From NCBI RefSeq assembly GCF_009730915.1, contig NC_052474.1, positions 9,025,501 through 9,089,500 of the forward strand: a DNA stretch of 64,000 nucleotides, given 5' to 3'. This DNA comes from Dioscorea cayenensis subsp. rotundata (taxonomy: Eukaryota; Streptophyta; Magnoliopsida; Dioscoreales; Dioscoreaceae). The notes below the pieces were generated by a model. The model ran no database searches. It was not told where the DNA came from and saw only the letters and a program-made list of their open reading frames with translations. The stretch's first letter is position 1, and every line of letters begins with the position of its first letter. The position numbers and the translations under genes are program-made. Below are positions 1 through 60,349 of the stretch, piece by piece.

Positions 1-1400
1 TATATCTATATGCTTGGTTCGTCCATGATGCGCAGAATTCTTTGTAATCTCAATGGTGGATCGATTATCACACCATATTTCAATTGTTTGACTTTGCTTC
101 ATCCCACAATCCTCCAGCATCCTCATCCACCATACACTTTGACAAGCTGCCGCCGTTGCAACTATATATTCGGCTTCGGTAGTTGAAAGAGTAGTGACAT
201 CTTGCTTTTTTGAACCCCATGGAATAGCACCTGATCCAAGATCAAATACCATACCAGATGTACTCCTTCTATCTTCAATCGATCCACCCCAATTGCTATC
301 TATAAATCCTTGCAGTTTACATTCATTGGTCTTAGTATACCAAATACCACAATTAACAGTTCCCACAATATATCTCAACAAATGCTTTGCAGCACCTAAA
401 TGCTGCTTTGTTGGCTTGCTAACAAACCTTGAAAGAACATTCTCAATGTACACAATGTCAGGATGAGAATGAGTCAAGTAAAGTAGCCTACCGATCAAAC
501 TCCTGTAGCTTCTAGAATCAGTGCTTCCTGAACCATCATCAGCTTGTAATTTTTCACCTATGATCATTGGTGTTATTGTAGCCTTGCATTGATTCATCTT
601 AAACAATTTGAGTGTTTCTTCAGCATATCTCCTCTGCACTATAAACACTCCATTCTCACGTTGTTTTACCTCCAATCCCAAGAAGTAGTTCAGAAGGCCC
701 AAATCTGACATCTCAAAAGCTTTTTGCATTTCAAGCTTGAATTCCTCCACCATTGTCTGAGAAGAGCTTAAGTACACAATGTCATCTACGTAAATGCAGA
801 CAAGTAACATGTGACCATCTCCATCTGAGTTTTTGTAAAGTGTATGCTCATTCAAGCTGCGCACAAAGCCATGATCTTGAAGATACCTATCAATCTTTGC
901 ATGCCAGGCTCTAGGTGCCTGTTTTAGGCCATATAGAGCCCTTTTAGCTTTAGCACCTTGGTTTCTTCTCCAATGCCTTCATAACCAGGTGGTTGTTCAA
1001 CATAGATTTCTTCTTGTATATCTCCATTCAAGAATGCAGATTTGACGTCAAAGTGATACACAACCCATCTCCACTGTGTAGCAAGGGCCAAGAGAAGTCT
1101 CATTATCTCCATTCTAGTGATTAGTGCATAAATCTCATCAAAATCGACACCTGCTTCTTGTGTATAACCCCTTGTAACCAAACAGGCCTTGTGTGTCTGA
1201 ATTCTCCCATCTGGATGATATTTTGTTTTAAATATCCACTTCAGTTTCACCACTTTCTTGTTTGGTGGAAGCTCCACCAAACCCATGTGTCATTGTGCTT
1301 GATAGTAGCCAGCTCTTCCTTCATTGCTTCCTTCCAAACTTTAGTTTTAGCTGCCTCTTCAAAAGTGATTGGATCAGCAATGATGAGAGCAAAAGTGTAG
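1..1400 (-). mobile_element. copia reverse transcriptase and RNase H region (fossil)
   Basis: The reverse transcriptase fingers and palm read W-I-F-K-T-K, then HFDVKSAFLNGDI near 1020-1060, and the catalytic YVDD near 785-800. RNase H follows, with STTEAEY near 165-190, and runs off the left edge of the window. The reading is interrupted; only the domain order and motifs are relied on here. Confidence 0.9.
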
Positions 1401-1719
1401 GTCTTGTAGATCTCCTTTATTGTTCTCATCTTCTTAACTGGAGATTCTTCTCCTGAAGTTTGCAATGAGTGTGACCTTGTTCCTGCATCTGCATCAATAG
1501 GAGGTACTTCATCATGCTCAATTGACTCAACCATTGGTAATTCTGATGGTGAACTTTCTTCTTCCACTTGACTGCACAAGTCTTCACTTGAATCTTCATA
1601 CATGATCAACCGGGTTCCTTCAGACTTATTGCTCCAATCCCAACCTGCACTCTCATTAAAGACTACATCCCTACTCACTATAGTTTTACATGTAGTAGGA
1701 TTATACAAACGATAGGCCT

Positions 1720-2959
1720 TAGAGTATAAACAATAACCTATGAATACACATCTTTCAGACCTTGTATCCAACTTTTGAAGTTTATGAGAGGGAATTAGAG
1801 AATAAGCAATGCAACCAAATACTCTTAAGTGACTTACAATGGGTTTAACTCCATGCCACGATTCATAAGGAGTCTTGTTCTTCACAGCTCTTGTAGGCGA
1901 GATGTTTAAGAGATACATCTGTCGTGTTTACAACTTCAGCCCATAGCTTATTTGGAAGGTTCCAGTGCTTCATCAAGGATCTAGCCATCTCCACAATAGT
2001 CCTATTCTTCATTTCAGAGACTCCATTTTGTTGTGGAGAATAAGGTGTGGTGAGTTGCCTAATGATCCCGTGCTTCTCACAAAATGAATTGAACTCATGG
2101 CTTGTAAATTCTCTTACCCTGTTGGTGCGCAAGACTTTAATTCTGTACCCTGACTGCATCTTTACTTCTTGTTTAAACTTCTGAAATACTTCAAAGACTT
2201 ATGAATTTTGTTTCAAGTAGTACACCCAACACATTCGACTATGGTCATAACAAGAGAAAATATCGACTGCCACTAAGAGATTTAGTCTGTAATAGTCCAC
2301 AGACGTCTGCGTGTACAAGCTGTAAGCGCGCATTGGCATTGCCGGTGTTCTTTCTATGAAATGGTCTTCTAACCTACTTCTCCATCACACATGTTTCACA
2401 CTGATGTAACACAGTAATATTCGGCAGTCCTAACACCATCCTTCTGTATTTTAGATCCTTTAAAGCACCAAAAATCAGGTGGCCATAACACAGGTGCCAC
2501 AATTTTGAGCTTTCCTTGACATTCATCGCCACATTGATCCTTCCCACCATGGACACATCTAAAGGAAACATGTTATTCTTGGTTTTGATTATACTGACCA
2601 GCTCATCTCCAGTATTGGCATTCCTGATGATGCAAGTGTCTTCAGTAAAGGTAACTGAGTATCCACTTACCAAGAGCTGACCAACACTCAATAGATTTTG
2701 TGCTAAACCCGGCACATACTGTACATTGTGCAGAAATTTTGTTTTGCCTCCAACTCCAACAAGTGCCACAGTTCCTTTTTCCTCAACTTGAATTTCTTTG
2801 TCGTCATTGAGTCGGACTGAAATCTTCTGAGACTCATCAAGGTTTTTGAACAACTCCTTGTTCTCGGACATGTGGTTAGAGCAAACCACTATCCACTAAC
2901 CACACCGAAGTGCACTGATTTTCTCCATCAAGTTGAGCCATGAAAAGATTGCTCAATTC
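1720..2959 (-). mobile_element. copia protease and integrase region (fossil)
   Basis: The protease motif (W-L-V-D-S-G) is at about 2885-2905. A pre-integrase zinc-binding domain (H/C pattern ending near CETCVMEK) lies around 2374-2480. The integrase core follows, with the conserved stretch TTPYSPQQNGVSE near 2030-2060 and copia-type C-terminal residues near 1700-1870. Gene order and motifs place it in Ty1/copia. The region is broken. Confidence 0.88.
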
Positions 2960-3854
2960 CTTCTCCTCTGCAACAAGAGTATTACCCTTCTCAGAGTTTT
3001 TATCTCTAAACCAACAGCCCACCTTCATGTGTCCAAATTTTTTGCACAAATGACATTGAATGTTGTCTTTAATTATAGCTTCTCTATTCACCATAGTTTT
3101 GTCTATTTTCAGTACCTTTGCCTCTTCCTCTTCCATGCGACCTTCCCATAGAGAAACCCCTCCCGCGACCTCTACAGGGTGCCTTTTCTTTGTCTTTAGC
3201 ACTTGATATTTCACCCCTGATATGAAGTGCTTTCTCTTCCTTCTCAACCTGGTCATCCGCTTGTCTTGCCAACCTAGCTTCATGAGCTAGTAAAGAACCG
3301 CTCACATCATCCATAGTAAGCTTCGTAAGGTCCTTGGACTCTTCAATGGCAGTGACCACATGGTTAAACTTGGGTTCTAAGCTCCATAGCAACTTTCCAA
3401 ACACCATAGCTTATGGAATGGTATCTCCTAAGCCTTTCATCTGATTTCCTAGTTCCAAAACCCTTGTAATGTAGCTTTGAACTCCTTCATTGCTCTTTAA
3501 TCTGGAATTTTCAAAATCTTGTCTCAATGTCTGAAGCTTGACTGCCACAACCTTAGGGTTCCCTTGAACCACCTTCTTCAAGATAGTTCACGCCTCATTT
3601 ACAGTGTTTGCAAAAGCAATACGGGCTAGAAGAGGCCGAGAGAGGGCTTGTTGTATAAAGAACAACACCTTGGCATCCTTCTTCTTGTTCTCTCTCACCT
3701 TTGCCTCATCTTCTTTCTTAGAGTATCCTTTCTCAACAAGATCCCAGAGTTATTGTGATCTGAACAAGGTTTTCATCATCAAGCACCAAAGATCATAATC
3801 TTCTCCATTGAAGATAGCTTGGTATAGCTCTGAGTTGCTGCCGTTCGTCACCAT
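2960..3854 (-). mobile_element. copia gag / nucleocapsid region (fossil)
   Basis: Translation from about 3854 begins MVTNGSNSELYQAIFNGEDY, a typical plant copia gag start shortly after the primer-binding site. A CCHC zinc knuckle (CHLCKKFGHMKVGC) lies near 3015-3065, after a basic R/G-rich stretch. It would have formed the element's particle core and RNA-binding domain. The region is broken in several places and not expected to work. Confidence 0.85.
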
Positions 3855-3887
3855 CTATTGCTGCCGAACCACAAGCTCTGAAACCAC

Positions 3888-4401
3888 TGTTGAAGATCAG
3901 CTAGTCTAATATAGCTGTAGAGTGAAAAATATCACTGATAAAATTAGGAAGAAGAGCAAGAGGTTTTTCAGTAGTTTTCTCTGCTGCTTAACATTTCATT
4001 AAAAAACTGGAAAAGTAGTAGATGAAGAGAGTACACCAACCTCTCTAATACAAAACACATACTTCTTCAAAAAATAATAATAACTTAATATCTTGGATAA
4101 AGTTCCAAGACACAGACAATCTCTGAGTACACTAGAGAGTTAATCTAGGATATATGAAACATACTTTGAAGCGACACAACACTACAGACTAATTAAACTT
4201 CTTCACCTATTGGTTAGTAGATCTTCTAGCTCATTCATTAGTTGTAAAGAGCATAGGATTTCCTCTCCACTACACTGGTTAACACACCAAGTGTGAGGTC
4301 AAAGTTCATTTTCCCATTTGACCTCCGCTGACCAATTCTCCTTCTTAGCAACTTCTTCAATCAACTTACAACACTACCTTGGGTCGAGTTCTGGTATAAC
4401 A
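3888..4401 (-). repeat. 5' LTR of the copia element
   Basis: This 514-bp segment is bounded by TGTT at 3888 and AACA at 4401, the usual short inverted ends of a plant copia LTR. It directly abuts the primer-binding site at about 3873-3887. The boundary is inferred from these ends and from the tRNA-complementary stretch, because the partner LTR is not in the window. Confidence 0.75.
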
Positions 4402-4639
4402 TAGTTGCGCATTCTAGCACAATCTATCCACCTTACCAACTAGCTTACTCCACAAATAATCAAGACCCTCTGACAGTGGGATCTCATCTTATAACAACTC
4501 AAACAGAATCTAGTGCATGCTTGAGACCACATGAAAGTTTGGCAAATGCTAATTAAACAAATAGAGATATCTTATTATATTGGGTAAAGTTGTATTTATC
4601 AAATTACAACTGTATAGACAACACTTTACACACCCCCAA
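4402..4639. other. unassigned sequence between the two retroelement remnants
   Basis: There is no convincing coding region. It lies directly outside the copia LTR and may be an eroded part of the gypsy remnant that continues to the right. Nothing specific was recognised. Confidence 0.4.
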
Positions 4640-5700
4640 CGCCATCAAAAGTTAAGTATGCACTATTTCGGTGCATTTGAGGTGGTCTAGAAAAATAAGT
4701 ATTTTTTCATACAAGCTTGTATTACCAAATGAAGCTCATATACACCCAGTGTTCCATGTTTGCTTTACTGAAGAAGTGTCATGGTTTACTACCTCAGAGT
4801 TTTGTGGTTCGCCTACACATATAGACAAACAGGGTTAGATCATTCAACCTGGTTATTTGCTACAATTTCAAACTCTTCTTTGGGGTAATCAAGCTACACC
4901 ACATGTGCTAGTTCAATAGGCAAGGTTATCAACAAGAGAATTCATGGGAGGATCTTCATAGCCTGCAAGCTCAATAACCACTCTTGGACCTTAAGGACAA
5001 GGTTATGTTGAATGGCCAAGGTAATGTTACATTCCTATGCAAGGTATTAATGAAGCAACCCCACGTGGACAATTCACAAGTTGCTCACAAGGAGGAACGT
5101 AGGGGTAAGTGTGATTAGCTAATGAAGGATGAACACCTGGACATGAATTATGTTAATGAAGGCTTGGTGGAGTGGGATTAGCGAATGACCAAAAAACACG
5201 TGGAAGAGTATTAATTATGTGGAGGAATTGTCCTGGGGTGCAAGAGCCAATCAAAGAATAGGAACAAAAAATGAGTGAGGCACATGAGTTCAAGGCGGAG
5301 GAGAGAGAATACTCTTTTTAAGGAATTAATTTGTGATGGTCTGAGCTAGGGGAGGCGTGAAAGAAATGAAAGCTAGACGCTTGGCTCGCCAAGGAGAAAG
5401 CTGAGGAAATATAGGGTTTCAGAAGAGAGTATGAAACTTTTTTATCTTCTTATTTTCTTGCTGCTTATTGAAGTTGATCTACTTAATTTGGCTGTGTAAT
5501 AAGGCATTGTAAGGAGCTTAGTCACTATCTTGCTTGTTGCTTTGGTTTCTCTGTGTTGGAACTTGTGAGATTTGTGTTTATCTTTATGAATTTAGCATTA
5601 TTATTGCTATTCTTAGATTATTGTTTACTTAGCAATAGCGAGTTCATCACAGCGTTTATTGCAAACAAATCTCAGGTAGGATGTTTAGCTCTCTCTAACA
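4640..5700 (+). mobile_element. Ty3/gypsy 3' remnant: integrase tail, chromodomain-like tail, 3' LTR
   Basis: A plus-strand reading near 4640-4780 matches the end of a gypsy integrase (YFGAFEVV, then YKLVLPNEAHIHPVFHV). Near 4890-5035 a second block resembles the chromodomain-like tail (VLVQ...LS...EF...LKDKV). A purine-rich stretch at about 5088-5109 could be the polypurine tract, and an LTR-like segment with TG...CA ends runs from about 5110 to 5700. Only the 3' part is present, with several breaks. The copia element lies immediately to its left, so the two are adjacent or nested. Confidence 0.7.
5110..5700 (+). repeat. probable 3' LTR of the gypsy remnant
   Basis: It starts TGTGATTAGC just after a purine-rich stretch and ends CTCTCTAACA, so both ends fit TG...CA. 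No second copy is available for comparison, so the limits are inferred. Confidence 0.4.
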
Positions 5701-5943
5701 TCATTTGCATGTGTTTGAATTTCTAGAGCTCATTTGCATGAAATCTATTTTATACATATATAATTTATATAAATAATATATCTTAATAAAAATTGAATAA
5801 ATCACAAATTTATTAAATATAATAATAATGGTTATAAATAAAATAAAATAATAATATACATGATAGATGATTAGAGCTAAGTACGAGAAGGCCATAATTT
5901 TCACCTGTGGTCAAGATGGGCAAAAGAGTAAACAATAGGTAAA
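5701..5943. other. AT-rich spacer
   Basis: Strongly AT-rich sequence between the gypsy remnant and the start of the MULE block. No gene or repeat structure was recognised. Confidence 0.5.
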
Positions 5944-6125
5944 GGGAAAATTACTGTTCACCCCTCGTAATTTTCAAAACTTCCCAAAAACCCCCTCCAA
6001 CTTTTTGCACACCCCGATGACACCTCCGTTATATTTTTACATTCCTTTTAACCCCTCGCCCGGTAAGTTGAAGTGGGTCCACGATATGAAATTCCTTTTT
6101 GCCCTTGCAAAAGGTGGGAAAAAAA
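5944..6125 (+). repeat. left long terminal repeat of the MULE, repeated at the head of every unit
   Basis: About 180 bp of C-rich, G-poor sequence ending near TTGCCCTTGCAAAAGG. Copies begin at 5944, 7917, 9864, 11819, 13772 and 15732. It is partly matched in inverted orientation by 21800-22000. Only the left type of end is repeated; no unit has its own right-hand end. Confidence 0.65.
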
Positions 6126-7916
6126 TGGCGCCCCAATCATAACTTTCTTTTATGCATAGTTTTTTTCAATGCCTCCCCGCTTGCTTTTTTTCTCAAACAA
6201 AGTTTAGAAGGCTCATATCTTGTTCTTCTTGTTCTTGTTCTTGTTCTTCTTCTTCTTCTTCTTCTTCTTCTTCTTCTTCTTTTTCTTCTTCTCATTTGGT
6301 GTATTCAATTTTAGCTCTTCCGATTAAATTATGGAGAGTTTTTTTGTGCTATTGCTAGATACAACGGGAGGGACGAGTGCTAATGTTCACTGACGACTTC
6401 TTGGGAATCAGTGTTAGCTGAAATATGTGAGCGATGGGGTCTCGATATTTCCCGTGTCAGGGTGAAGTTTATCACACCCGATGGACATAAAAACGGTATG
6501 TCTCATATAAAAACGAGGTTGACTTCCGCAGCATGTGTCACGTGCAGCTCCATCTTCAAATGTTCCGTTGTTGATCTTGTTGTTGAGACGGATGATGTGG
6601 CATCGTATCCTCATCGAAAACGAGTTCTTCGTCATGTAAGTTTCTTCTCGCTTTATGTTTATATAGTTGTAGAAGTTAATTATTGTTTATTATCCCCGCC
6701 ATCACTGTTACATTTTATCAAGTTTCCATTAACTTATTAACTTATTATTTAACTTTTTGTTTTAACGCTTTAAGATTTATGTTTATCGCTTTAAATATTT
6801 TGTGTCTCTGTTTAAATATTGATCGTGTTCGTTTAAACTAAAGTGTTGGCAGGAATTCAGAATCTGGCAGCGCTTCTGTTCCACATCATGGCGAGCCTGA
6901 GGGTGTGGCATGCCTTCCTTCCTCATCCGATCAAGCTGAAGTGTTGTCGTTGGATATTGGACAATGTTTTGAAGGCGTTGAACATTTCAGAGACGCACTT
7001 AGGAATTTTGCAATCAAAAGGAATTTTGACTTCAAATTACTGAAGAACGAGAAACACCGGGTGACTGTGGAAGGAAGCTTCGACTTCAAAAATGGCGTAT
7101 AAGGAAGCTATATTCCCCTCATACCGACAATGACGACGTCGATGGATGAAAATCGCGACTCGCGTATGCATCGCCTGTGACGAGAAGGCAACCTGGGTGT
7201 CCTGAGACGAAAGAGGATCGAGTCGTAAGCGTCCCGAGGTCCGCAAGTTGCGTTGTAGCCATTACCCAGCGTTTCGGTCACAATCGCAGATCGTGGAATG
7301 AATCATCGTTTCACTAGGCATTGTGTATATACTTCTTATTATTGTTTAAATATTGAACTTTTATATTTAAATATATCTCTTCACGCTTTTTAAATATTTT
7401 ATTCTCTGTTTAACTGTTATTTTTATCGTTTAAAATAAATTTGTATCCGCTTAAAATGTACAACGGGATGGTGCTGAAGCGTAATTAATACACGCTCGGT
7501 TCCCCAAGCGTTTCCACTCCCGTCGCACATAAAAATCGGAACATTACATTACACTCTATAAGAGATTATTAAGTAATAAGGATATTTTTAAGCGAGAAAA
7601 TATTAAGTATATTTTTTTGTTGTAATTACATTGATATTATTAAATAATAAGGATATTTTTAAGCAGAAAATATTAAATTTAAAGCAGAGAAACCTAAACT
7701 TAAACAGAGAAAACGAAAGTTAAAGGGCAAAAAGTTATCATTATACTGATTAAAATGAATGTTGATATTAGCAGATAATGAAAATGAAAAATGAAACGAG
7801 AACCCTACCCGAGTAATGTACCACTGCGGACTACAATATCATCCAACAAGAACAGAACCTCAAAACGAAACAGAATGAATTTAATTGAATTTAGATACAT
7901 GTACAGATTAATTAGA
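5944..7916 (+). repeat. MULE shell unit 1 of 6
   Basis: In order it has: terminal repeat; a (TTC)n/TTG tract at about 6222-6290; exon 1 from ATG 6331 to 6635; a GT-AG intron 6636-6852; exon 2 from 6853; a zinc-knuckle tail near 7239-7290; a noncoding tail. Exon 1 in its best frame reads like the N-terminal domain of plant MuDR transposases (CERWGLDIS, VKFITPDGHK). Exon 2 holds the MuDR DNA-binding domain (IGQCFEGVEHFRDALRNFAI, then KLLKNEKHRVTVEG). The WRI/RAS region, the DDE catalytic domain and the SWIM finger are absent: the sequence passes straight from the DNA-binding domain to the basic C-terminal tail. Several small frame disruptions are present. It cannot encode an active transposase. 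Confidence 0.85.
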
Positions 7917-9863
7917 GGGAAAATTACTGTTCACCCCTCGTAATTTTCAAAACTTCCCAAAAACCCCCTCCAACTTTTGCACACCCCGGACACCTCCGTT
8001 ATATTTTACATTCCTTTTAACCCCCCGCCGGTAAGTTGAAGTGGGTCCACGATATGAAATTCCTTTTTTGCCCTTGCAAAAGGTGGGGAAAATAGGCCCT
8101 AATCATAACTTTCTTTATGCATAGTTTTTCAATGCCTCACCTTGCTTTTTCTCAAACAAAGTTTAGAAGGCTCATATCTTGTTCTTCTTGTTCTTGTTCT
8201 TGTTCTTCTTCTTCTTCTTCTTCTTCTTCTTCTTCTTCTTTTTCTTCTTCTCATTTTGGTGTATTCAATTTTAGCTCTTCGATTAAATTATGGAGAGTTT
8301 TTGTGCTATTGCTAGATACAACGGGAGGGACGAGTGCTAATGTTCACGGCACGACTTCTTGGGAATCGAGTGTTAGTCGAAATATGTGAGCGATGGGGTC
8401 TCGATATTTCCGTGTCGGGGTGAAGTTTATCACACCCGATGGACATAAAAAGCGGTATGTCTCATATAAAAGCGAGGTTGACTTTCCAACAGCATGTGTC
8501 ACGTGCACTCCATCTTCAAATGTTCTGTTGTTGATCTTGTTGTTGAGACAGATGATGTGGCATCGTATCCTACTGAAAACGAGTTCTTCTCGTTGTAAGT
8601 TTCTTCTCGTTTATGTTTATATAGTTGTAGAAGTTAATTATTGTTTATTATCCACTCATCATACATTTATCAAGTTTCCATTAACTTATTAACTTATTAT
8701 TTAACTTTTTGTTTTTAACGTTTAAGATTTATGTTTATCGTTTAAATATTTTTGTGTCTCGTTTAAATATTGATCGTGTTCGTTTAAACTAAAGTGTTGG
8801 CAGGAATTCAGAATCTGGTAGCGCTTCTGTTCCACATCATGGCGAGCCTGAGGGTGTGGCATGCCTTCCTTCCTCATCCGATCAGTCGAAGTGTTGTCGT
8901 TGGATATTGGACAATGTTTTGAAGGCGTTGAACATTTCAGAGACGCACTTAGGAATTTTGCAATCAAAAGGAATTTTGACTTCAAATTCTAGAACGAGAA
9001 ACACCCCGAGTGACTCGTGGAAGGAAGCTTCGACTTCAAAAATGGGCGTATAAGGAAGCTATATTTCCCATATGCAGAAACGAGCAGGCCGATGGATGAA
9101 AATCGCGAATCGCGTTTACTGCATCAGTGACGAGAAAGGCAACCCTGGGTGTCCTAGGCGAAAGAGGATCGAGTCGTGGCGTCCGAGGTCCGCAGAGTTG
9201 CGTTGTAGCCATTGCCACGCTTCGTGTCACAATCGCAGATCGTGGAATGAATGCATGCCGACTAGGCATTGTGTATATACTTCTTATTATTGTTTAAATA
9301 TTGAACTTTATATTTAAATATATCTCTTACGTTTTAAATATTTTTATTCTCTGCTTAACTCGTTATTTTTTTATCGTTTAAAAATAAATTTGTATCCGCT
9401 TAAAAATGTACTAACGGGATGGTCTGTCAAGCGTGCACTAATACACGCTTTCGGTTCCCCAGCGTTTCCACTCCCGTCGCACATAAAAATCGGAACATTA
9501 CATTACACTCTATAAGAGATTATTAAGTAATAAGGATATTTTTAAACATGTAAAATATTAAGTATATTTTTGTTGTAATTACATTGATATTATTAAATAA
9601 TAAGGATATTTTAAACAGAAAATATTAAATTTAAACATGTAGAAACCTAAACTTAAACGGAGAAAACGAAAGTTAAAGGGCAAAAAGTTATCATTATCAC
9701 GCTAAAATGAATGTTGATATTAGCCGATAATGAAAATGAAAATGAAACAGAACCCTACCCGATAATGTACCTATGGACTACAATATCATCCAACAAGAAC
9801 AGAACCTCAAAACGAAACAGAATGAATTTAATTGAATTTAGATACATGTACAGATTAATTAGA
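7917..9863 (+). repeat. MULE shell unit 2 of 6
   Basis: Same architecture as unit 1: (TTC)n tract at about 8179-8252, exon 1 ATG at 8290, intron 8595-8803 with GTAAGT donor and CAG acceptor, exon 2 from 8804, zinc knuckle at about 9204-9244. The knuckle reads CSHCHASCHNRRSW, that is C-X2-C-X4-H-X4 followed by Trp where the last Cys is expected. It differs from unit 1 mostly by small changes at C-containing positions; long AT stretches are identical. Confidence 0.85.
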
Positions 9864-11818
9864 GGGAAAATTACTGTTCACCCCTCGTAATTTTCAAAAC
9901 TTCCCAAAAACCCCTCGACTTTTGCACACCCCGGACAGCCCTCCGTTATATTTTACATTCCTTTTAACCCTCACGAGAAGTTGAAGTGGGTCCCGATATG
10001 AAATTCTTTTTGCCCTTGCAAAAGGTGGGGAAAATGGCTTTCAATCAAAACTTTCTTTATGCATAGTTTTTCAATGCCTCCTGCTTGCTTTTTCTCAAAC
10101 AAAAGTTTAGAAGGCTCATATCTTGTTCTTCTTGTTCTTGTTCTTGTTCTTCTTCTTCTTCTTCTTCTTCTTCTTCTTTCTTTTTCTTCTTCTCATTTGG
10201 TGTATTCAATTTTAGCTCTTCCGATTAAATTATGGAGAGTTTTTGTGCTATTGCTAGATACAACGGGAGGGGACGAGTGCTAATGTTCACTGCAGCGACT
10301 TCTTGGGAATCAGTAGCTGATAAAATATGTGAGCGATGGGGTCTCGATATTTCCCGTGTCGAGGGTGAAGTTTATCACACCCGATGGACATAAAAGCAGT
10401 ATGTCTCATATAAAAAGCGAGGTTGACTTCCAGTAGCATGTGTCACGTGCACTCCATCTTCAAATGTTCCGTTGTTGATCTTGTTGTCGGGATGGATGAT
10501 GTGGCATCAGTATCCTACTTAAAAAGCGCAGTTCTTCTCGTTGTAAGTTTCTTCTCGTTTATGTTTATATAGTTGTAGAGTTAATTATTGTTTATTATCC
10601 ACACTCATCTGTTTACATTTTATCAAGTTTCCATTAACTTATTAACTTATTATTTAACTTTTTGTTTTTAACGTTTAAGATTTATGTTTATCGTTTAAAT
10701 ATTTTGTGTCTCGTTTAAATATTGATCGTGTTCGTTTAAACTAAAGTGTTGGCGGGAATTCGTAACTGCGCGGCTACATGCTCCACATCATGGCGAGCCC
10801 GAGGGTGTGGCATGCCTTCCTTCCTCATCCGATCAAGTCAAGTGTTGTCGCTGGATATTGAGACAATGTTTTGAAGGCGCTGAACATTTCAGAGACGCAC
10901 TTACGAATTTTGCAATCAAAAGGAATTTTGACTTCAAATTCCTGAAGAATGAAAAACACCAGGTGATCGTGGAAGGAAGCTCGACTTCAAAAATGGCGTA
11001 TAAGGAAGCTATATTCCCATACGACAATGACGCAGTCGATGGATGAAAATCGCGAATCTAGCGTTTGCGACCGCCCGCGACGAGAAGGCAACCTGGGTGT
11101 CCCTAGGGACGAAAGAGGATCGAGTCGTGAGCGTCCGAGGTCCGTGAAGTTGCGTTGTAGCCATTGCCACGCTTCAGGTCACAATCGCGGATCGTGGAAT
11201 GAATCATGTGCAGACTCAGGCATTGTGTATATACTTCTTATTATTGTTTAAATATTGAACTTTATATTTAAATATATCTCTTTACGCTTTTAAATATTTT
11301 TATTCTCTGCTTAATCTATTATTTTTATCGTTTAAAAATAAATTTGTATCCGCTTAAAATGTACAACGGGATGGTGCTGAAGCGTAATTAATACACGCCG
11401 GTTCCCCAGCGTTTCCACTCCCCGTCGCACATAAAAAAATCGAACATTACATTACACTCTATAAGAGATTATTAAGTAATAAGGATATTTTTAAACGAGA
11501 AAATATTAAGTATATTTTTGTTGTAATTACATTGATATTATTAAATAATAAGGATATTTTTAAAGCAGAAAATATTAAATTTAAACGAGAGAAACCTAAA
11601 CTTAAACAGAGAAAAGCGAAAGTTAAAGGGCGAAAAAGTTATCATTATCACAGTTAAAATGAATGTTGATATTAGCCGATAATGAAAATGAAAATGAAAC
11701 GAGAACCCTACCCGATAATGTACCTGCGGTACTAATATCATCCAACAAGAAACGGAACCTCAAAACGAAAGCAGTAATGAATTTAATTGAATTTAGATAC
11801 ATGTACAGATTAATTAGA
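9864..11818 (+). repeat. MULE shell unit 3 of 6
   Basis: Exon 1 ATG is at 10232 and the intron donor at 10543. At the acceptor (about 10754) the AG seen in the other units reads GCGG, so this copy's splice site is damaged or misread. Exon 2 preserves the DNA-binding domain (FRDALTNFAIKRNFDFKFLK). The zinc knuckle at about 11156-11196 is the clearest of the array (CSHCHASGHNRGSW) and again has Trp for the last Cys. The catalytic core is absent, as in the other units. Confidence 0.85.
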
Positions 11819-13771
11819 GGAAAATTCTCATTCACCCTCGTAATTTTCAAAACTTCCCAAAAATCCCCTCCAACTTTTGCACACCCCGGACGACCCTCAG
11901 CTATATTTTACATTCCTTTTTAACCCCTCACGGTAAGTTGAAGTGGGTCCACGATATGAAATTCCTTTTTGCCCCTTGCAAAAGGTGGGAAAAAAATAGC
12001 TCGATCATAACTTTCTTTTATGCATAGTTTTTCAATGCCTCACATCGCTTTTTCTCAAACAAAGTTTAGAAGGCTCATATCTTGTTCTTCTTGTTCTTGT
12101 TCTTGTTCTTGTTCTTCTTCTTCTTCTTCTTCTTCTTCTTCTTTTTTCTTCTTCTCATTTGGTGTATTCAATTTTAGCTCTTCCGATTAAATTATGGAGA
12201 GTTTTTGTGCTATTGCTAGATACTACGGGGAGGGACGAGTGCTAATGTTCACTGCTACGACTTCTTGGGAATCGGTGTTAGTGAAATATGTGAGCGATGG
12301 GGTCTCGATATTTCCGTGTCGAGGTGAAGTTTATCACACCCGATGGACATAAAAGCGGTATGTCTCATATAAAAGCGAGGTTGACTTCCAGCGCATGTGT
12401 CACGTGCACTCCATCTTCAAATGTTACGTTGTTGATCTTGTTGTTGAGGGCGGATGATGTGGCATCGTATCCCTCGAAAAGCGAGTTCTTCTCGTTGTAA
12501 GTTTCTTCTCGTTTATGTTTATATAGTTGTAGAAGTTAATTATTGTTTATTATCCCTGTCACTGTTTACATTTATCAAGTTTCCATTAACTTATTAACTT
12601 ATTATTTAACTTTTTGTTTTAACGTTTAAGATTTATGTTTATCGTTTAAATATTTTTGTGTCTCTGTTTAAATATTGATCGTGTTCGTTTAAACTAAAGT
12701 GTTGGCGAGGGAATTAGAATCCGGCAGCTTACATTCCACATCATGGCGAGCCCGAGGGTGTGGCATGCCTTCCTTCCTCATCCGATCAGTCGAAGTGTTG
12801 TCGTTGGATATTGGACAATGTTTTTGAAGGCGTTGAACATTTCGAGACGCACTTAGAATTTTTGCAATCAAAAGGAATTTTTGACTTCAAATTCTTGAAG
12901 AGCGAGAAACACCGGGTGATTGTGGAAGGAAGCTTCGACTTCAAAAATGGGCGTATAAGGAAGCTATATTCCCCTCATGCGACAGATGACGAGGCCGATG
13001 GATGAAAAATGCATGACTGCGTTTGCGATCACTTTGTGACGAGAAGGCAACACTGGGTGTCCTAGGCGAAAGAGGATCGAGTCGTGAGCGTCAGAGTCCG
13101 TGAAGTTGCGTTAGTAGCCATTGCCACGTTTCGAGTCACTGATCGCGGATCGTGGAATGAATGCATTCAGACTAGGCATTGTGTATATACTTCTTATTAT
13201 TGTTTAAATATTGAACTTTATATTTAAATATATCTCTTACGTTTTAAATATTTTATTCTCTCGCTTTAAGCATTATTTTTATCGTTTAAAAATAAATTTG
13301 TATCCGCTTAAAATGTACAACGGGATGGTCTTTGAGCGTAATTAATACACGCTCGGTTCCCCAGCGTTTCCACTCCGTCGCATGACAAAAAATCGGAACA
13401 TTACATTACACTCTATAAGAGATTATTAAGTAATAAGGATATTTTAAGCAGAAAATATTAAGTATATTTTTTTGTTGTAATTACATTGATATTATTAAAT
13501 AATAAGGATATTTTTAAAGCAAGAAAATATTAAATTTAAAGCAGAGAAACCTAAACTTAAAGCGAGAAAAGCGAAAGTTAAAAGAGCAAAAGTTATCATT
13601 ATCTGATTAAAATGAATGTTGATATTAGCCGATAATGAAAATGAAAATGAAACGAGAACCCTACCCGATAATGTACCCTACGGACTACAATATCATCCAA
13701 CAAGAACGAGAACCTCAAAAGCGAAGCAGAATGAATTTAATTGAATTTAGATACATATGCAGTTAATTAGA
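11819..13771 (+). repeat. MULE shell unit 4 of 6
   Basis: Exon 1 ATG at 12194, intron from 12497 to about 12710, exon 2 thereafter, zinc-knuckle region at about 13110-13155. The (TTC)n tract precedes the ATG as in the other units. The catalytic domain is missing, and small indels disrupt the reading frames. Confidence 0.84.
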
Positions 13772-15731
13772 GGGAAAAATTCATGTTTCACCCTCGTAAT
13801 TTTTCAAAACTTCCCAAAAAACCCCCTCCAACTTTTGCACACCGGATGACCCTCCGTTATATTTTTACATTCCTTTTTAACCCCCGCCGGTAAGTTGAAG
13901 TGGGTCCACGATATGAAATTCCTTTTTTGCCCTTGCAAAAGGTGGGGAAAAATGGCGCTCAATCATAACTTTCTTTATGCATAGTTTTTCAATGCCTCAC
14001 GCTTGCTTTTTCTCAAACAAAGTTTAGAAGGCTCATATCTTGTTCTTCTTGTTCTTGTTCTTGTTCTTCTTCTTCTTCTTCTTCTTCTTCTTCTTCTTCT
14101 TTTTCTTCTTCTCATTTGGTGTATTCAATTTTAGCTCTTCGATTAAATTATGGAGAGTTTTTGTGCTATTGCTAGATACTAGCGGGGAGGGGACGAGTGC
14201 TAATGTTCACTGGCGACTTCTTGGGAATCGATGTTAGCTGAAATATGTGAGCGATGGGGTCTCGATATTTCCCGTGTCGGTGAAGTTTATCACACCCGAT
14301 GGACATAAAAAGCAGTATGTCTCATATAAAAGCGAGGTTGACTTCCGGTAGCATGTGTCACGTGCACTCCATCTTCAAATGTTACATTGTTGATCTTGTT
14401 GTTGGGAGCGAGATGATGTGGCATCGTATCCTCACGAAAAGCGAGTTCTTCTCGTTGTAAGTTTCTTCTCGTTTATGTTTATATAGTTGTAGAAGTTAAT
14501 TATTGTTTATTATCCATCATCACTGTTTACATTTTATCAAGTTTCCATTAACTTATTAACTTATTATTTAACTTTTTTTGTTTTTAACGTTTAAGATTTA
14601 TGTTTATCGTTTAAATATTTTTGTGTCTCTGTTTAAATATTGATCGTGTTCGTTTAAACTAAAGTGTTGGCGAGGAATTGAATCTGCGGTAACCATTTCC
14701 ACATCATGGCGAGCTCGAGGGTGTGGCATGCCTTCCTTCCTCATCCGATCAAGTGAAGTGTTGTCGTTGGATATTGGACGATGTTTTGAAGGCGTTGAAC
14801 ATTTCGAGACGCACTTAGGAATTTTTGCAATCAAAAGAATTTTTGACTTCAAATTCTTGAAGAGCAGAAACAGGGTGATCTGTGGAAGGAAGCTTCGACT
14901 TCAAAAAAATGGCGTATAAGGAAGCTATATTCCCCATACGGACAATGACGAGGCGATGGATGAAAATCATGACTGCGTTTGCGACCACTTTGTGACGAGA
15001 AGAGCAACTCGGTGTCCTAGACGAAAGAGGATCGAGTCGTAGCGTCCGAGGTCCGCAAGTTGCGTTAGTAGCCATTGCCACGTTTCGAGTCATGTCGCGG
15101 ATCGTGGAATGAATCATTGCCGACTAGGCATTGTGTATATACTTCTTATTATTGTTTAAATATTGAACTTTATATTTAAATATATCTCTTACGTTTTAAA
15201 TATTTTTATTCTACGTTTAACTCATTATTTTTTTATCGTTTAAAAATAAATTTGTATCCGCTTAAAATGTACAGACGGGATGGTCTTTGAGCGTAATTAA
15301 TACACGCTCGGTTCCCCAGCGTTTCCACTCCCGTCGCAGCATAAAAATCGGAACATTACATTACACTCTATAAGAGATTATTAAGTAATAAGGATATTTT
15401 TAAGCGAGAAAATATTAAGTATATTTTTTTGTTGTAATTACATTGATATTATTAAATAATAAGGATATTTTTAAAGCAGAAAATATTAAATTTAAAGCAG
15501 AGAAACCTAAACTTAAAGCAGAGAAAAGCGAAAGTTAAAGAGGCGAAAAGTTATCATTATCACGATTAAAATGAATGTTGATATTAGCCGATAATGAAAA
15601 TGAAAATGAAACGAGAACCCTACCCGATAATGTACCCTGCGGACTACAATATCATCCAACAAGAAACGGAACCTCAAAAGCGAAGCAGAATGAATTTAAT
15701 TGAATTTAGATACATGTACAGATTAATTAGA
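13772..15731 (+). repeat. MULE shell unit 5 of 6
   Basis: Exon 1 ATG at 14150, intron 14457-14674 (GTAAGT...AG), exon 2 with the MuDR DNA-binding domain, zinc-knuckle region at about 15064-15107. The (TTC)n tract runs from about 14040 to 14112. Architecture and the missing catalytic core are the same as in unit 1. Confidence 0.84.
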
Positions 15732-17664
15732 GGGAAAATTACATTCATCCCCTCGTAATTTTTCAAAACTTCCCAAAAACCCCCTCAACTTTTGCACCCG
15801 ATGACCCTCCGTTATATTTTACATTCCTTTTTAACCCCCTAGCAGTAAGTTGAAGTGGGTCCACGATATGAAATTCCTTTTTTGCCCTTGCAAAGGTGGG
15901 GAAAAATGAGCGCAATCATAACTTTCTTTATGCATAGTTTTTCAATGCCTCACGCTTGCCTTTTTCTCAAACAAAGTTTAGAAGGCTCATATCTTGTTCT
16001 TCTTGTTCTTGTTCTTGTTCTTCTTCTTCTTCTTCTTCTTCTTCTTCTTCTTCTTTTTTCTTCTTCTCATTTGGTGTATTCGATTTTAGCTCTTCCGAGT
16101 TAAATTATGGAGAGTTTTTGTGCTATTGCTAGATACAACGGGGAGGACGAGTGCTAATGTTCCGCAGTGACTTCTTGGGAATCGGTGTTAGGCTGGGAAA
16201 TATGTGGCGATGGGGTCTCGATATTTCCGTGTCGGGTGAAGTTTATCACACTCGATGGACATAAAAGCAGTATGTCTCATATAAAAGCGAGGTTGACTTC
16301 AGTAGCATGTGTCACGTGCACTCCATCTTCAAATGTTCTGTTGTTGATCTTGTTGTTGAGACAGATGATGTGGCATCGTATCCTACTGAAAACGAGTTCT
16401 TCTCGTTGTAAGTTTCTTCTCGTTTATGTTTATATAGTTGTAGAAGTTAATTATTGTTTATTATCCCTGTCACTGTTTACATTTATCAAGTTTCCATTAA
16501 CTTATTAACTTATTATTTAACTTTTTGTTTTAACGTTTAAGATTTATGTTTATCGTTTAAATATTTTGTGTCTCTGTTTAAATATTGATCGTGTTCGTTT
16601 AAACTAAAAGTGTTGGCGAGGAATTGAGACTGGCGGTAACATTTCCACATCATGGCGAGCTCGAGGGTGTGGCATGCCTTCCTTCCTCATCCGATCAGTG
16701 AAGTGTTGTCGTTGGATATTGGACAGATGTTTTTGAAGGCGTTGAACATTTCGAGAGCGCACTTAGGAATTTTGCTGATCAAAAGGAATTTTTGACTTCA
16801 AATTCTTGAAGAGCGAGAAACACGGGTGATCTGTGGAAGGAAGCTTCGACTTCAAAAATGGCGTATAAGGAAGCTATATTCCCCATACAGGACAATGAGC
16901 GAGCCGATGGATGAAAATCGTGACTGCGTTTGCTGACACTTTGTGACGAAAGCGACACAGGGTGTCCTGAGGCGAAAGAGGATCGAGTCGTGGCGTCCAG
17001 AGGTCGCAGAGTTGCGTTGTAGCCATTGCTGCGTTCGGGTCATGATCGCGGATCGTGGAATGAATCATGTGCCCGACTAGGCATTGTGTATATACTTCTT
17101 ATTATTGTTTAAATATTGAACTTTATATTTAAATATATCTCTTACGTTTTAAATATTTTTATTCTCCGTTTAAGCTATTATTTTTATCGTTTAAAATAAA
17201 TTTTGTATCCGCTTAAAATGTACTGACGGGATGGTGCTTTGAAGCGTCAATTAATACACGCTCGGTTCCCCAGCGTTTCCACTCCCGTCGCACATAAAAA
17301 TCGGAACATTACATTACACTCTATAAGAGATTATTAAGTAATAAGGATATTTTAAACAGAAAATATTAAGTATATTTTGTTGTAATTACATTGATATTAT
17401 TAAATAATAAGGATATTTTTAAAGCAGAAAATATTAAATTTAAACAGAGAAACCTAAACTTAAACGAGAAAAGCGAAAGTTAAAAGGGCGAAAAGTTATC
17501 ATTATACGAGTTAAAATGAATGTTGATATTAGCCGATAATGAAAATGAAAATGAAAGCAGAACCCTACCCCGATAATGTACCTGCGGACTACAATATCAT
17601 CCAACGAAACGGAACCTCAAAAAGCGAAAGCAGAATGAATTTAATTGAATTTAGATACATGTAC
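15732..17664 (+). repeat. MULE shell unit 6 of 6 (last, slightly shorter)
   Basis: Exon 1 ATG at 16107, intron 16408-16620, exon 2 from 16621, zinc-knuckle region at about 17018-17060. The unit follows the shared pattern to GATACATGTACA at 17653-17664, then departs from the array into the 3' flank of the Ulp1-like gene instead of meeting another terminal repeat. This marks the array end. Confidence 0.84.
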
Positions 17665-17984
17665 ATTTACATTGACAAAAATTTGTCATGTTCTTACGAA
17701 AAATGAATTGAATTTAAAAGCTGGTTTACATTTGAAACTATTACACCTATCTGATGACTATGACCCGCTTACGTACTACTCCCCTCGGGTTCGTTTTACA
17801 GATGAAAAGCGGAGTTTAAACTAATTACATTGATATTTTACACAATGAACTATATACTTAAACACTTTGAAAGTGTATGTTAAACAATGAATCTGGATTA
17901 TTAAAGAAAGAATCGTGTATACTAAATATAGAAAAGAATGACTAAGAACCCGCTTGCGAAGACTCCTCTGGTGTGATGCAGCTG

Positions 17985-20900
17985 CCCTCCCCTCCCTAAG
18001 TATGCGGAAACATACCTTGTCGCGAGATAAGGGACGTCGGTCTGCAGTACCCGTAGCTTCTCACCGGTGAGTAACTCACTCGATAAACCGCATGAGCGTA
18101 GGCGGCTGCGATCGACACTTCCTTTTTACATCGTGGGGCTTCGATTAGTGCGTGAACAAGCGGGTACTTTCTGATCGCCGACTCGCCCAACTCCATGTCG
18201 TACTGAGATGTCGAATAGGTTCCACTGTCGAGATATACAAGTTCATATTAGAATGCCGATTATTTACTGAACACTATTACACAAACACAAATTATTAAAG
18301 CACTTACCATTTCTAGCAGCGTTTTTTATCGTATTCTTCGCTTTGGCATGAAGAATAATGCATGTATTCTTGTTTTTTCATTGTCGAGGGGCGACGACGA
18401 CATGGAAGTGGCCACTCATAATTGCTCGGGAGGATGAGCGATGTCCACTTCATGCAAGTTGCTGCAGCGGCATCTCCAATCATAGCCATCGTGGATTCGT
18501 ATGCGTCGTCGCCACGCTTTGACATGAACAAGGCCGATTGTGCGTGTGATGGGCGCGCCTCTTATAGCGATATGGCACTACGCTCGTCATCTTTTGCAAG
18601 ATACATACGAGTCGTCCATCACGTACGTCCGTGACCCGTCTCCTTCCCTCGAGCGGGTCGAATAGATTGGCCCGGGTGTGGTCGTGCGGCAGTCGTTCTT
18701 CCACTGACGCAGTCTCTGTGGTTGAGCGGAACAAAGACATGTAAACAATGTTGTAAGTATAAAATTAAAGCGTTAAAGTATAAACTTTAAATTCTATATT
18801 GAATGTTTTAAAGCAGTAGCGGTAATATTTAAAAGGGTATCACTTATAAGTTAAATGTTATCTAGAAATTTTTAAAGCGTTAACGCTCCTACTTAAATGG
18901 TAACTAAAAAGCAGTTTTAAACAATATCATAAAAACTTCAAACTTAATTTGTCCATAGGGCGTGTTGAGGAAGATCCTTATCAACTCACTCTCGTACTTA
19001 TTGAGGCGGGATTGGCCAACGTATTTTTTTTTCTTCGGAATGAAGACTTTCCCAAAGTTCTTCTACTTTTTATTGGCTTCCCTTTAATGGGGGCACGACG
19101 CAAGAGCATCAACAGGGAGACACTTCTTTACATGCTTCTTGTTCTTGTGGGATTGTGTGCGCCCGATGCGGCGCGGTCAACCGTTGGTTCCATCAGTAAT
19201 TCCACCGTTGAGGATAGACTCAACGACCTTCTCAACCGTGAGTTCCGCGGCAGCGACGATCGATGGGAGACACAGCGTTGTCCGGTTGTTCTTCTTCATG
19301 GATTGTGTCCATCTTTGATGCCTGCATTGTCAGCGCCAGGTTCCAGCGTATGCATGATGTCGTCAACAATGAGTCGACGATCTTTTTCCACGCGGCAAAC
19401 TTCGGCGCCATCTTCGATCTCCTCCACCGTGATGGGCATGTCATCAGCGTTAACAACATCGGTACCGATGGTGCTGCTGCGCGATGAGTGTCGCTATTAT
19501 TTCATCGTCGGCCCAGACGCGGGTGAAAGCGGAGGCATTATTGTTTTTCCTCTTTTTGCAAGCTTCTTGAATGAGGCCGTCTTTGAAGGGCCACCCGATG
19601 ATGTCCTCGTGCGTCGAACTCCGAGCGAGCGTATCAGTCCCGAGTGCTTCATTTGTTTGAAGGAAGGCGCGATCGATTGTGGCTGTGACCGGCCTTCCAA
19701 TGCCTCCACCCGAGCGACAATGCCGAGGGAACTCGATCATCAAAATCTGCAAGACTGCGTGAGAGTTGCGGTGACATCCTCGCTTAGTGCGGTGGACGCC
19801 GCACGTTCGGGGGCGACGGTCGGGGGAAGCACGGTCGAGGCGGGGGTGGGGAGGGCTTCTCGGCCTCGGCGAGATGCGTTTTGACTGGAAGCGAGGGAGA
19901 GCCGGCGTCCAGTAGCGCAGGAAGAGGTTGCCCTACTCATCTTGCCTTTGAGCAAGCGGTTCCGGGAGCAATAGCATCCGACCCAAAGCGGTTGGCTCTG
20001 AACAAATACTTCTTCATCAGGCATTCGCGGAACTCAGCTCGGGGAAACTAGCATGTGTAAAGCAAACAATCTTAGCGAAATTATTTAGTTTAAACAATTA
20101 AAACTATATTTACATATGTAACTCAGTATATTTAAAGCGTTATAACCTATTGTGTTAAACGATAAAACAAACAAAATTAAACATTAAACCAAAAGTTTAA
20201 GCGGTAGTTGAACAAAGTTAAGCGAGTAAGTTATAATTTTTAAAGCGATAGATGAATAAAGTTAAGCGGTAAATGACATGGTTAAGCGTTAACGTCTCGA
20301 GTTAAAACAAAAATATTTTTTTGAATTATTACCTCTTTTTCCTCCGAGAGATGACAAACTCGTCTACATAAATCACGCTTCCGGTGAAAGTATTTTCACC
20401 GTAGCAGCAGCATCCTTGGGATCTTGCAAAAACGGACTTTTCTTTCCGGTTCCCGGTCACTCAGTAAAACCCGGGATGTTAAGCGCTCACGCGTGCAACC
20501 CTTAACATACCCGGTGTTGGTCTTCTTCCCCGCAGCATCTAGATTGCACTCGGGTAGCGGCATTGTGGTATGTCCTCCATAAGCCACTTGCGTCGCTTGC
20601 GCCCGTGCGTAGCGCCCATTCGGTGTAGATCATCGACATAATCAGCGATCCGATTAGGAGCCAAAGCGGGGAGGTATTTGGGAAGAGGATTGTACCCGGG
20701 AGAGTACGCATCGTGATGGTTTGACAAAATTCTCCTCTTCTCCCCTACGTCGATCGAGTTCTTTGAAGAGTGCTCCCGATGGAGTCTCGCGTCTCTCGTA
20801 CGTCTTCGATAAATACCTCTCTGAGTGGCCGTGTTTTCTTCTTAAACACGATCGCCTCCCCATGCAGCGCAGGTAAGAACGATTGCCACATCTTGGTCGC

Positions 20901-21160
20901 GAAAGTCGGATGCTTTCCCCAGATCCCTGAATTTATTGGTGCGATTATCGTATCTACCCGCGAGAGAGTCGAAGGGCCAGCTCTTGGTATACTGACTTCC
21001 AGACTCGATGAAATCGTGTGAGCGGTGTCCTTCGGATGATCTCCGATGTCGAGGATCATGTGAACTTTCAATTCAGCCCACGGTCTCCACTCTGAGGGTG
21101 TCGAGTAGCATCGCCCGTTAACTAGATTGGCCGCCCAGTAATCACAAAGCTGCGACAATA
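17985..21160 (-). pseudogene. Ulp1-like (peptidase C48) gene of the MULE, decayed
   Basis: Minus-strand readings fit the Ulp1-type cysteine protease genes carried by some plant MULEs; such enzymes cleave SUMO-type conjugates. At about 18384-18418 a block GHFHVVVA resembles the catalytic HW(F/H)VVVVD stretch. At about 18010-18120 comes the C-terminal block, where a DC-A-Y-MRFIE pattern is followed by GEKLRVLQTDVPYL; the Cys codon itself is not clean. An 83-bp GT-AG intron (18225-18307) fits this strand. Upstream, 20745-21158 has an open frame with LCDYWAANLVNGRCYS and VDTIIAPINSG, after a splice acceptor near 21153. Many frame breaks separate the pieces, some possibly sequence errors. An acidic stretch (MPITVEEIEDGAEV) near 19400-19450 also belongs to this strand. 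Confidence 0.55.
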
Positions 21161-21799
21161 ATAGCGCATTGTTAAGCGGAAATGTAATTTGTTAAACGGT
21201 AAACACTCGGTTCTTAAACAACGATATCATTTTTAAGCGATGGCGTATACTATTAAGCGGAGATACGAAATAATTAAGCGGAGACGAACTAACCCTAAAG
21301 CGGTGAAAGCTCATTGTTTAAGCGGAGTCCTCGTTTTTACAAGCTATGCAACCATATCAAGCGAGCAGTAGCGTAGATTATAAACATTACACAAAAGCAC
21401 AACAATCGGAAAACCATTTCGATCAGTATACATGAGCGAAAATGTAAAACAAAACAAAAACCCTAGCGAGACATCTCCTGCGGACTAACAAAACCCCAGT
21501 AGATTAATCCCCACGAAAGCTTGATGTCTTCCAACAAAAACAAAATCACAAACCAAAACCGAAAAAAATGTCTCTTAGTATGGAATAGTTAACAAAAACC
21601 ATAATGAATACCTTAGGCGCAAAGTGACTGAAATCTAGAATACTTGCAGGACTTCTTCTTGAGGCAGCGTGGAAAGGGAAGAGTCTGGGGTGGGAAGAAA
21701 GAGGCGGAGAGCGAGTTGGTGAGTCAGCGAGTTGAGAGAAAGACAAGCAGTTTGTAATGCCTAAGAAAAACCCACCCACTTCTCTCACTACCACCGAAA

Positions 21800-22000
21800 A
21801 TGGGTGACGCTACGACTTCCGTCTGCAAGGGCATTTTAGTCCATAAAATTTTTAAATACACTCAGTTTAATGCCAAGTTACGTATTTTTGGGGTTTCAAA
21901 ATCGTGGAGTTGAAAAGGAAGGGGTTTTTGGGTATTCCGAAACTATGGGGGTTTGTTTGACAATTTGGCAAAGTTGTAGGGTTTTTTTTTGGCAATTTCC
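21800..22000 (-). repeat. right terminal repeat of the MULE block
   Basis: In reverse complement it begins GGAAATTGCC, contains CCCAAAAACCCCTTCC and reaches TGCCCTTGCA about 175 bp in, matching the layout of the left end at 5944-6125. It is more diverged from the left end than the unit copies are from one another. Confidence 0.55.
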
Positions 22001-26078: not shown

Positions 26079-26809
26079 TATAAATGGCGGCAGTCAATAT
26101 GCTTCACATTCTCAGAATTGCTTTGATCTGTGAATTGGAAGTTTGCTGCAGATGTAAAACAAAATCACTCACCTTTACTGGTGAACTCCTTCTGTGTCAA
26201 CATTGGTTATTTTAAAAAACAGGCATGCTTTTGACTTTTTTAATGTGATTGTTACCAGGGGGAACAATATTACTAATTCGTCCTAATCACTTGCAATGTA
26301 AATGAGGACTATTCACTGTTTTTAGTAATAACCGTATGCCAATTTCTACTGAAGATGTAAATGAGTTCTCAGTTAATCTTTGAATTGGTACTCCAAAAGA
26401 CTCTGCGTATAAATATCAATTCAGTGGCATATAATCTTCTTGTGTTGAAATTTTAACTAATAATAATCTAGTAAAAGATTTTTTTTTTTCTCTTAAATCT
26501 TAGTAGGATAAATGGATAATTATATATATATATATATTTTTTTTTTGAACCATATATTATATAGAATCATAGATAGACAAACAGAGAACCCACCAATGGC
26601 AAATTGGTAAAATAATCCTTACAACCTCTTCAAACATCAACCAAACTACCTGTCAATCAAAAGCTAATACAAGAACTCCTCTCAAAAGTCAAAAGTATCA
26701 ACCAGAATGCTGTTGCTGCTGCCCTCTCTTCTTCCCTAAACTTCCTAACAACCAGAATGCTCTTCCCTTCTCCAACCCAACTAACATTATCACTAACACT
26801 AACACCATC
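26079..26809. other. intergenic region between CRIPT and the PPR gene
   Basis: It includes the CRIPT 3' end, a T-rich stretch and a (TA)n run at about 26520-26536. It becomes pyrimidine-rich just before the PPR start. No gene was recognised. Confidence 0.5.
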
Positions 26810-60238: not shown

Positions 60239-60349
60239 TCTGGTTCGTCTTCAACCCTAAACCTAAACCTAAACCTCTCTGTCTCTCTTCTCTCTTGCCT
60301 TCGGTTCTTCATTTTGGGCGTTCTCTTCCATCAATCAATCAAAGTCTCT

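Follow-up and report, generated by a model that had tools for sequence, protein, structure and literature searches.

Six head-to-tail units of a MULE derivative with a phased TTAA-core motif and CHG-centred variation among copies

The array and its surroundings

The DNA analysed is a stretch of 64,000 nt, here called the window, and all coordinates are positions within it (Table 1). In the assembly, positions 5944-17669 (the array) carry six head-to-tail units of 1,938-1,973 bp, as delimited by self-BLAST and alignment, and positions 17670-22000 form the downstream segment. The remainder of the window contains a PPR gene, an aconitase exon, a gene for the chloroplast ATP synthase gamma chain and pieces of a Copia-type retrotransposon. 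The PPR gene has one frame change near 28138-28160, and one of its frames runs 324 aa through seven repeats. In the ATP synthase gamma gene, the pieces of which align closely with the solved chloroplast chain, a clear frame change is present near 59290; the frame breaks again between ~59565 and 59918, where an intron could be responsible. Since both of these genes are broken as well, the errors extend beyond the transposon. The tRNA and Rfam searches gave no matches, and no relative was confirmed among 12 pattern matches in viral contigs.

Table 1 Coordinates of the units, motif chains and neighbouring features in the 64,000-nt window
Feature	Position	Strand	Length	Details
Unit 1	5944-7916	+	1973 bp	alignment
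Unit 2	7917-9863	+	1947 bp	alignment; PF03108 2.6e-7
Unit 3	9864-11817	+	1954 bp	alignment; PF03108 2.4e-8
Unit 4	11818-13770	+	1953 bp	alignment; PF03108 without match in three plus frames
Unit 5	13771-15731	+	1961 bp	alignment; PF03108 without match in three plus frames
Unit 6	15732-17669	+	1938 bp	alignment; PF03108 without match in three plus frames
Unit 1, chain 1	6729-6833	+		6 sites, 20-21 bp apart; inside intron 1; same place in 6/6 units
Unit 1, chain 2	7346-7451	+		6 sites, 20-23 bp apart; in 6/6 units
Unit 1, chain 3	7640-7720	-		5 sites, 19-21 bp apart, TTAAACG orientation; 6/6 units with 4 or 5 sites
Downstream segment	17670-22000	- (inferred)		GC-rich exon-like stretches between motif-rich AT-rich stretches
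Downstream chain	18765-18893	-		7 sites
Downstream chain	20132-20302	-		9 sites
Downstream chain	21172-21274	-		6 sites, exact rule
Copia-type retrotransposon pieces	927-3286	-		RVT_2, SH3, Pol_BBD, gag_pre-integrs; several frames
PPR gene, GC-rich	26573-28734			ten PPR_2 stretches matched, two overlapping frames
Aconitase exon	44282-44806	-		unbroken across 156 aligned residues
Chloroplast ATP synthase gamma chain gene	58886-60250	+		broken frames

The units recur in self-BLAST at offsets of ~1.97, 3.92, 5.87, 7.83 and 9.79 kb with 90-92% identity, and their pairwise identity in the alignment, gaps counted, is 86.5-90.3%. The sequence TTAATTAGA lies directly before units 2-6, at 5/5 joints, and is absent before unit 1; a longer form, GATTAATTAGA, is found with at most one mismatch at four of the five. 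Unit 1 starts with GGGAAAATTACTG, and the sequence preceding it ends in AATAGGTAAA. At the other side, unit 6 passes straight into the downstream segment, with different sequence following TACATGTACA. The flanks of units 1 and 6 are single-copy within the window by BLAST, which at the setting used detects no further repeat in the window beyond the array. A preliminary description of this DNA had read six tandem copies here and suggested a self-comparison; the six-unit periodicity of the self-BLAST offsets, the unit alignment and the recurrence of TTAATTAGA bear out that reading. A noisy long-read assembly may multiply or collapse units, and the many apparent indel errors in the window leave a small chance that the copy number is such an artefact. 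The unrepeated outer flanks and the TTAATTAGA joints speak against it, and neither fixes the copy number.

The start of the unit is a putative MULE end. A 300 x 600 base comparison for an inverted partner of this terminus scored 48, relative to a mean of 33 and a maximum of 55 in 200 shuffles, and a scan of the window outside the array gave a top minus-strand score of 44, near 22.0 kb, and no inverted partner. A search for a target-site duplication, which in MULEs measures 8-11 bp, gave none at 17669 or 22000: ATAGGTAAA, which stands before unit 1, occurs once in the window, and its 10-mer, with one mismatch allowed, is present elsewhere but not at these two positions. Since neither an inverted partner nor a target-site duplication was found, the label TIR rests on resemblance, and the MULE terminal repeat earlier assigned to each unit is unproven. 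The second end of the element may be lost or degenerate. A candidate right subterminal homology between the 3' end of the unit and 21438-21592 was rejected: the two have CTGCGGACTA in common, but their score of 59 compares with a shuffle maximum of 66.

Coding content and the phased motif

Unit 1 is arranged as the terminus, a leader containing a TCT microsatellite, an ATG at 6331, exon 1, an intron (6636-6852, GTAAGT donor and TTGGCAG acceptor), a second exon and an AT-rich 3' part. The ATG exon is one that we take to resemble MULE transposases. The second exon holds the MuDR DNA-binding domain at ~6950-7072, and a degenerate zinc knuckle begins near 7254. PF03108 (DBD_Tnp_Mut) is matched in unit 1 at 1e-11 and in two further units, three of the six in all (Table 1). 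The models for DDE (PF10551) and SWIM (PF04434) match none of the 18 plus-strand frame translations of the six units; as noise hides PF03108 in half of the units, this negative profile result is weak by itself. The spacing is the stronger argument for loss of the core: in unit 1, the PF03108 match ends ~180 nt before the first Cys of the knuckle, which leaves too little room for a catalytic core. The knuckle itself reads C-x2-C-x4-H-x4-W (CSHCHASGHNRRSW-like), with Trp at the position expected for the last Cys, and its profile match is a sub-threshold C2H2 at 0.015. The longest listed stop-to-stop frame in 5944-17669 is 118 aa, a length that may reflect noise. Because DDE and SWIM are not recognised, the unit is named a MULE derivative rather than a complete MULE.

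These results agree with the one-ended, head-to-tail architecture without a recognisable catalytic core that had been described, and profiles for a catalytic domain, run against the plus frames of the units, gave nothing to contradict the proposed absence of DDE and SWIM. The claim of spliced N-terminal exons with a MuDR domain stands for the splice signals of unit 1 and the domain in units 1-3, and found no match in units 4-6. The claimed C-terminal zinc knuckle is present as a knuckle-like stretch, but in degenerate form.

The noncoding parts of the units contain a TTAA-core motif in regular phase. A chain was defined as at least four TTAA cores spaced 19-23 bp apart, and the scan used the TTAA cores alone. 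Of the 21 chains in the window, none lies outside 5944-22000: every unit has three, which makes 18 for the array, and the downstream segment has the other three. The longest chain is 2 in each of 1-5943, 22001-43000 and 43001-64000. Among dinucleotide shuffles, 0/200 reach a chain length of 6 for the unit majority sequence and 0/200 reach 9 for the downstream segment. The heptamer CGTTTAA / TTAAACG shows the same confinement, with 30 occurrences in the array, 2 in the downstream segment and 0 in the rest of the window. With a looser pattern, unit 1 has nine forward and four reverse sites, all of the reverse ones in its 3' part; the array as a whole has 52 forward and 25 reverse, and the downstream segment 2 forward and 26 reverse. 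By analogy with known elements, the chains are most likely, in intact relatives, binding sites of an element-encoded protein. Where such phased arrays are restricted to a MULE, they mark candidate target sites of transposon-encoded regulators outside Arabidopsis.

Splice-like signals suggest that the downstream segment is to be read on the minus strand. BLAST detects no similarity between this segment and the units, a result expected for different parts of one element and equally for two elements, and its assignment to the same element therefore rests on the motif. On this basis, the adjoining 4.3 kb probably belong to the same element type. No Pfam match above the cut-off was obtained from 14 of the 18 minus-strand ORFs of at least 60 aa, one of the 10 plus-strand ORFs, the three minus-strand frames or four stitched pieces, and the best match below it is to DUF1431 at 0.025. 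Two candidate downstream genes, one of Ulp1 type (C48) and one for VANC (DUF1985), were rejected for want of a match in the minus-strand part of this set; the noisy frames weaken the search for VANC.

Variation among the units

Across the six units, 483 of 2048 alignment columns are variable, and the variable columns are clustered. When triplets were compared among copies without a consensus, the CHG triplets (CAG, CTG, CCG, CGG) differed in 281/329 cases (85%), those with CG but not CHG in 443/821, other G/C triplets in 2840/7394 (38%) and A/T triplets in 712/3118 (23%). For unit 1, the comparison of CHG with other G/C triplets gives a Fisher p of 5.4e-15. The form of the changes is scrambled, the same site being read as CAG, CGAG and GCAG in different copies. 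Gaps occur in 102 of the 254 singleton columns (40%); transitions account for 89 of the 152 substitutions. Much of the remaining variation is in homopolymer length, and where the surrounding columns are clean only 27 of 432 columns vary, six of them by substitution. Relative to the majority, every unit carries 15.7-20.6 frame-breaking indels per kb, whereas the PPR frame mentioned above stays open for 324 aa. Invariant runs extend up to 50 columns, whereas in 1000 shuffles with randomly placed variable columns the longest run averages 24.7 and never exceeds 45. CAG/CTG depletion, with values of 0.78 for the array and 0.56 for the PPR region, fails to distinguish transposon from gene.

Methylation of native plant DNA disturbs nanopore base calling, as described in an excerpt of the relevant study (PMC7501810). 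The differences of 10-13% between units look mostly technical, with the character of uncorrected nanopore-type miscalls of methylated DNA, and we infer that the miscalling here takes a CHG-specific form. The assembly would then retain uncorrected long-read errors that are densest where the DNA is probably CHG-methylated, and the concentration of differences at CHG suggests methylation of the array in the tissue that was sequenced. If the variation is miscalled methylated DNA, it follows that the units are near-identical, young and silenced; the error pattern indicates that they are probably near-identical, young and CHG-methylated. In some plant assemblies, CHG methylation can leave its mark on base calling as apparent divergence between copies, and if this explanation of the noise holds, transposon ages and intactness taken from such assemblies are misleading.

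Origin, fate and possible function

The arrangement resembles that of the VANDAL elements of Arabidopsis. According to excerpts of the published descriptions, VANC proteins target short motifs repeated in tandem in noncoding VANDAL DNA, introns included (PMC5735166), and VANDALs have degenerate TIRs (PMC10398659). As far as these excerpts extend, the array matches them in its MULE-type transposase domain, in short motifs that recur within an intron and elsewhere in noncoding DNA (21 chains), in the lack of a clear TIR pair and in a probable second coding region. It differs in that its motif is TTTAAACG-like, whereas the excerpts give YAGTATTAY or AGTTGTCC/AGTTGTAC as VANC motifs, in that no VANC domain is recognised at the locus, and in that one segment is itself repeated six times. 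The VANC21 and VANC6 motifs are absent from 5944-22000 and occur as five single sites elsewhere in the window. Because these motifs are absent and DUF1985 was not found, the likeness to VANDAL is one of layout.

The explanation that we consider probable is that a VANDAL-like MULE with an internal deletion was recently amplified to six tandem copies, which are now a silenced by-product. It builds on what is seen directly: the assembled array, the recurring joint, the small distance left at the position of the core, the motif common to the array and its neighbour, and the CHG-centred variation. The unit would have retained one end, the N-terminal exons of the transposase and noncoding DNA with the ~21-bp-phased motif, while an internal deletion would have removed the DDE/SWIM core and the second end would have ceased to be recognisable. 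A rearrangement may then have fused the 3' side of the unit to its own terminus through a short filler, and copy number may subsequently have risen through unequal exchange or rolling-type copying. An array with this history would be expected to have no protein function of its own.

Autonomous MULEs give rise to deletion derivatives that lose the catalytic core, keep an end and subterminal DNA, and are usually dispersed and bounded by two TIRs. The array is like them in the loss of the core and the retained end, but it is one-ended and tandem. No head-to-tail array of a single deleted MULE appears among the literature matches listed (titles and abstract beginnings). The nearest MULE arrays found are the SaTar multimers of guayule and rice, which an excerpt describes as arrays of unrelated elements targeted to microsatellites (PMC5907723). 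To the extent of that excerpt, both cases involve non-autonomous MULEs in linear, un-nested arrays, whereas the array described here is built from a single 1.95-kb unit, repeated head to tail and joined by TTAATTAGA.

Besides amplification followed by silencing, the array could act in trans, its transcripts feeding small RNAs that silence the family. Such a source of silencing RNA is plausible, if a minor contender: tandem repeats are described, in an excerpt of PMC10398659, as siRNA sources and RdDM targets, and the CHG-centred differences are what a methylated array would be expected to give and do not conflict with small-RNA silencing, but no inverted repeat of at least 150 bp is present in 1-30000. 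Somewhat less likely, and the boldest reading, is that the array multiplies sites for a VANC-like protein and so recruits it or titrates it from intact copies. The confinement of the phased chains to this element within the window, with 18 in the array, is in line with such a sink, as are the shift of motif orientation with the inferred gene direction, the excerpted accounts of VANC targets as likewise tandem short motifs in noncoding VANDAL DNA (PMC5735166) and of degenerate TIRs (PMC10398659). On the other side are the missing DUF1985 on the downstream minus strand, where noise limits the search, the absence of the known VANC motifs from 5944-22000, and the CHG error pattern, which suggests a methylated rather than a hypomethylated array. 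A further step, doubtful at present, would be a sequence-specific anti-silencing system proper to a MULE that falls outside the VANDAL families known so far, with the 21-bp-phased TTTAAACG-like motif as its target and the array as landing site or sink. If the array were a sink of this new kind, regulatory DNA of a transposon would have been turned into an incipient satellite.

There is little to favour an old array, in which the 10-13% differences between units would be genuine and would reflect preferential mutation of methylated CHG sites. Methylated cytosines do mutate faster, but deamination yields transitions, as opposed to the indels and scrambled triplets observed, and the invariant runs exceed the longest obtained by shuffling. 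The weakest reading, which takes up a suggestion of the preliminary description, is a dominant-negative repressor made by transcription and translation of the units into a DNA-binding protein without catalysis; PF03108 in three units and the usable-looking splice sites of unit 1 would allow it, but it is unsupported and very unlikely given the short and possibly noise-limited longest frame, the degenerate knuckle and the likely CHG methylation, which points to silence and argues against a translated product.

As a separate observation on base composition, CG is not depleted here: the observed/expected ratio is 1.23 in the array and 1.24 in the downstream segment, compared with 0.28-0.88 in seven other regions. 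The high CG of 5944-22000 may be created in part by miscalls.
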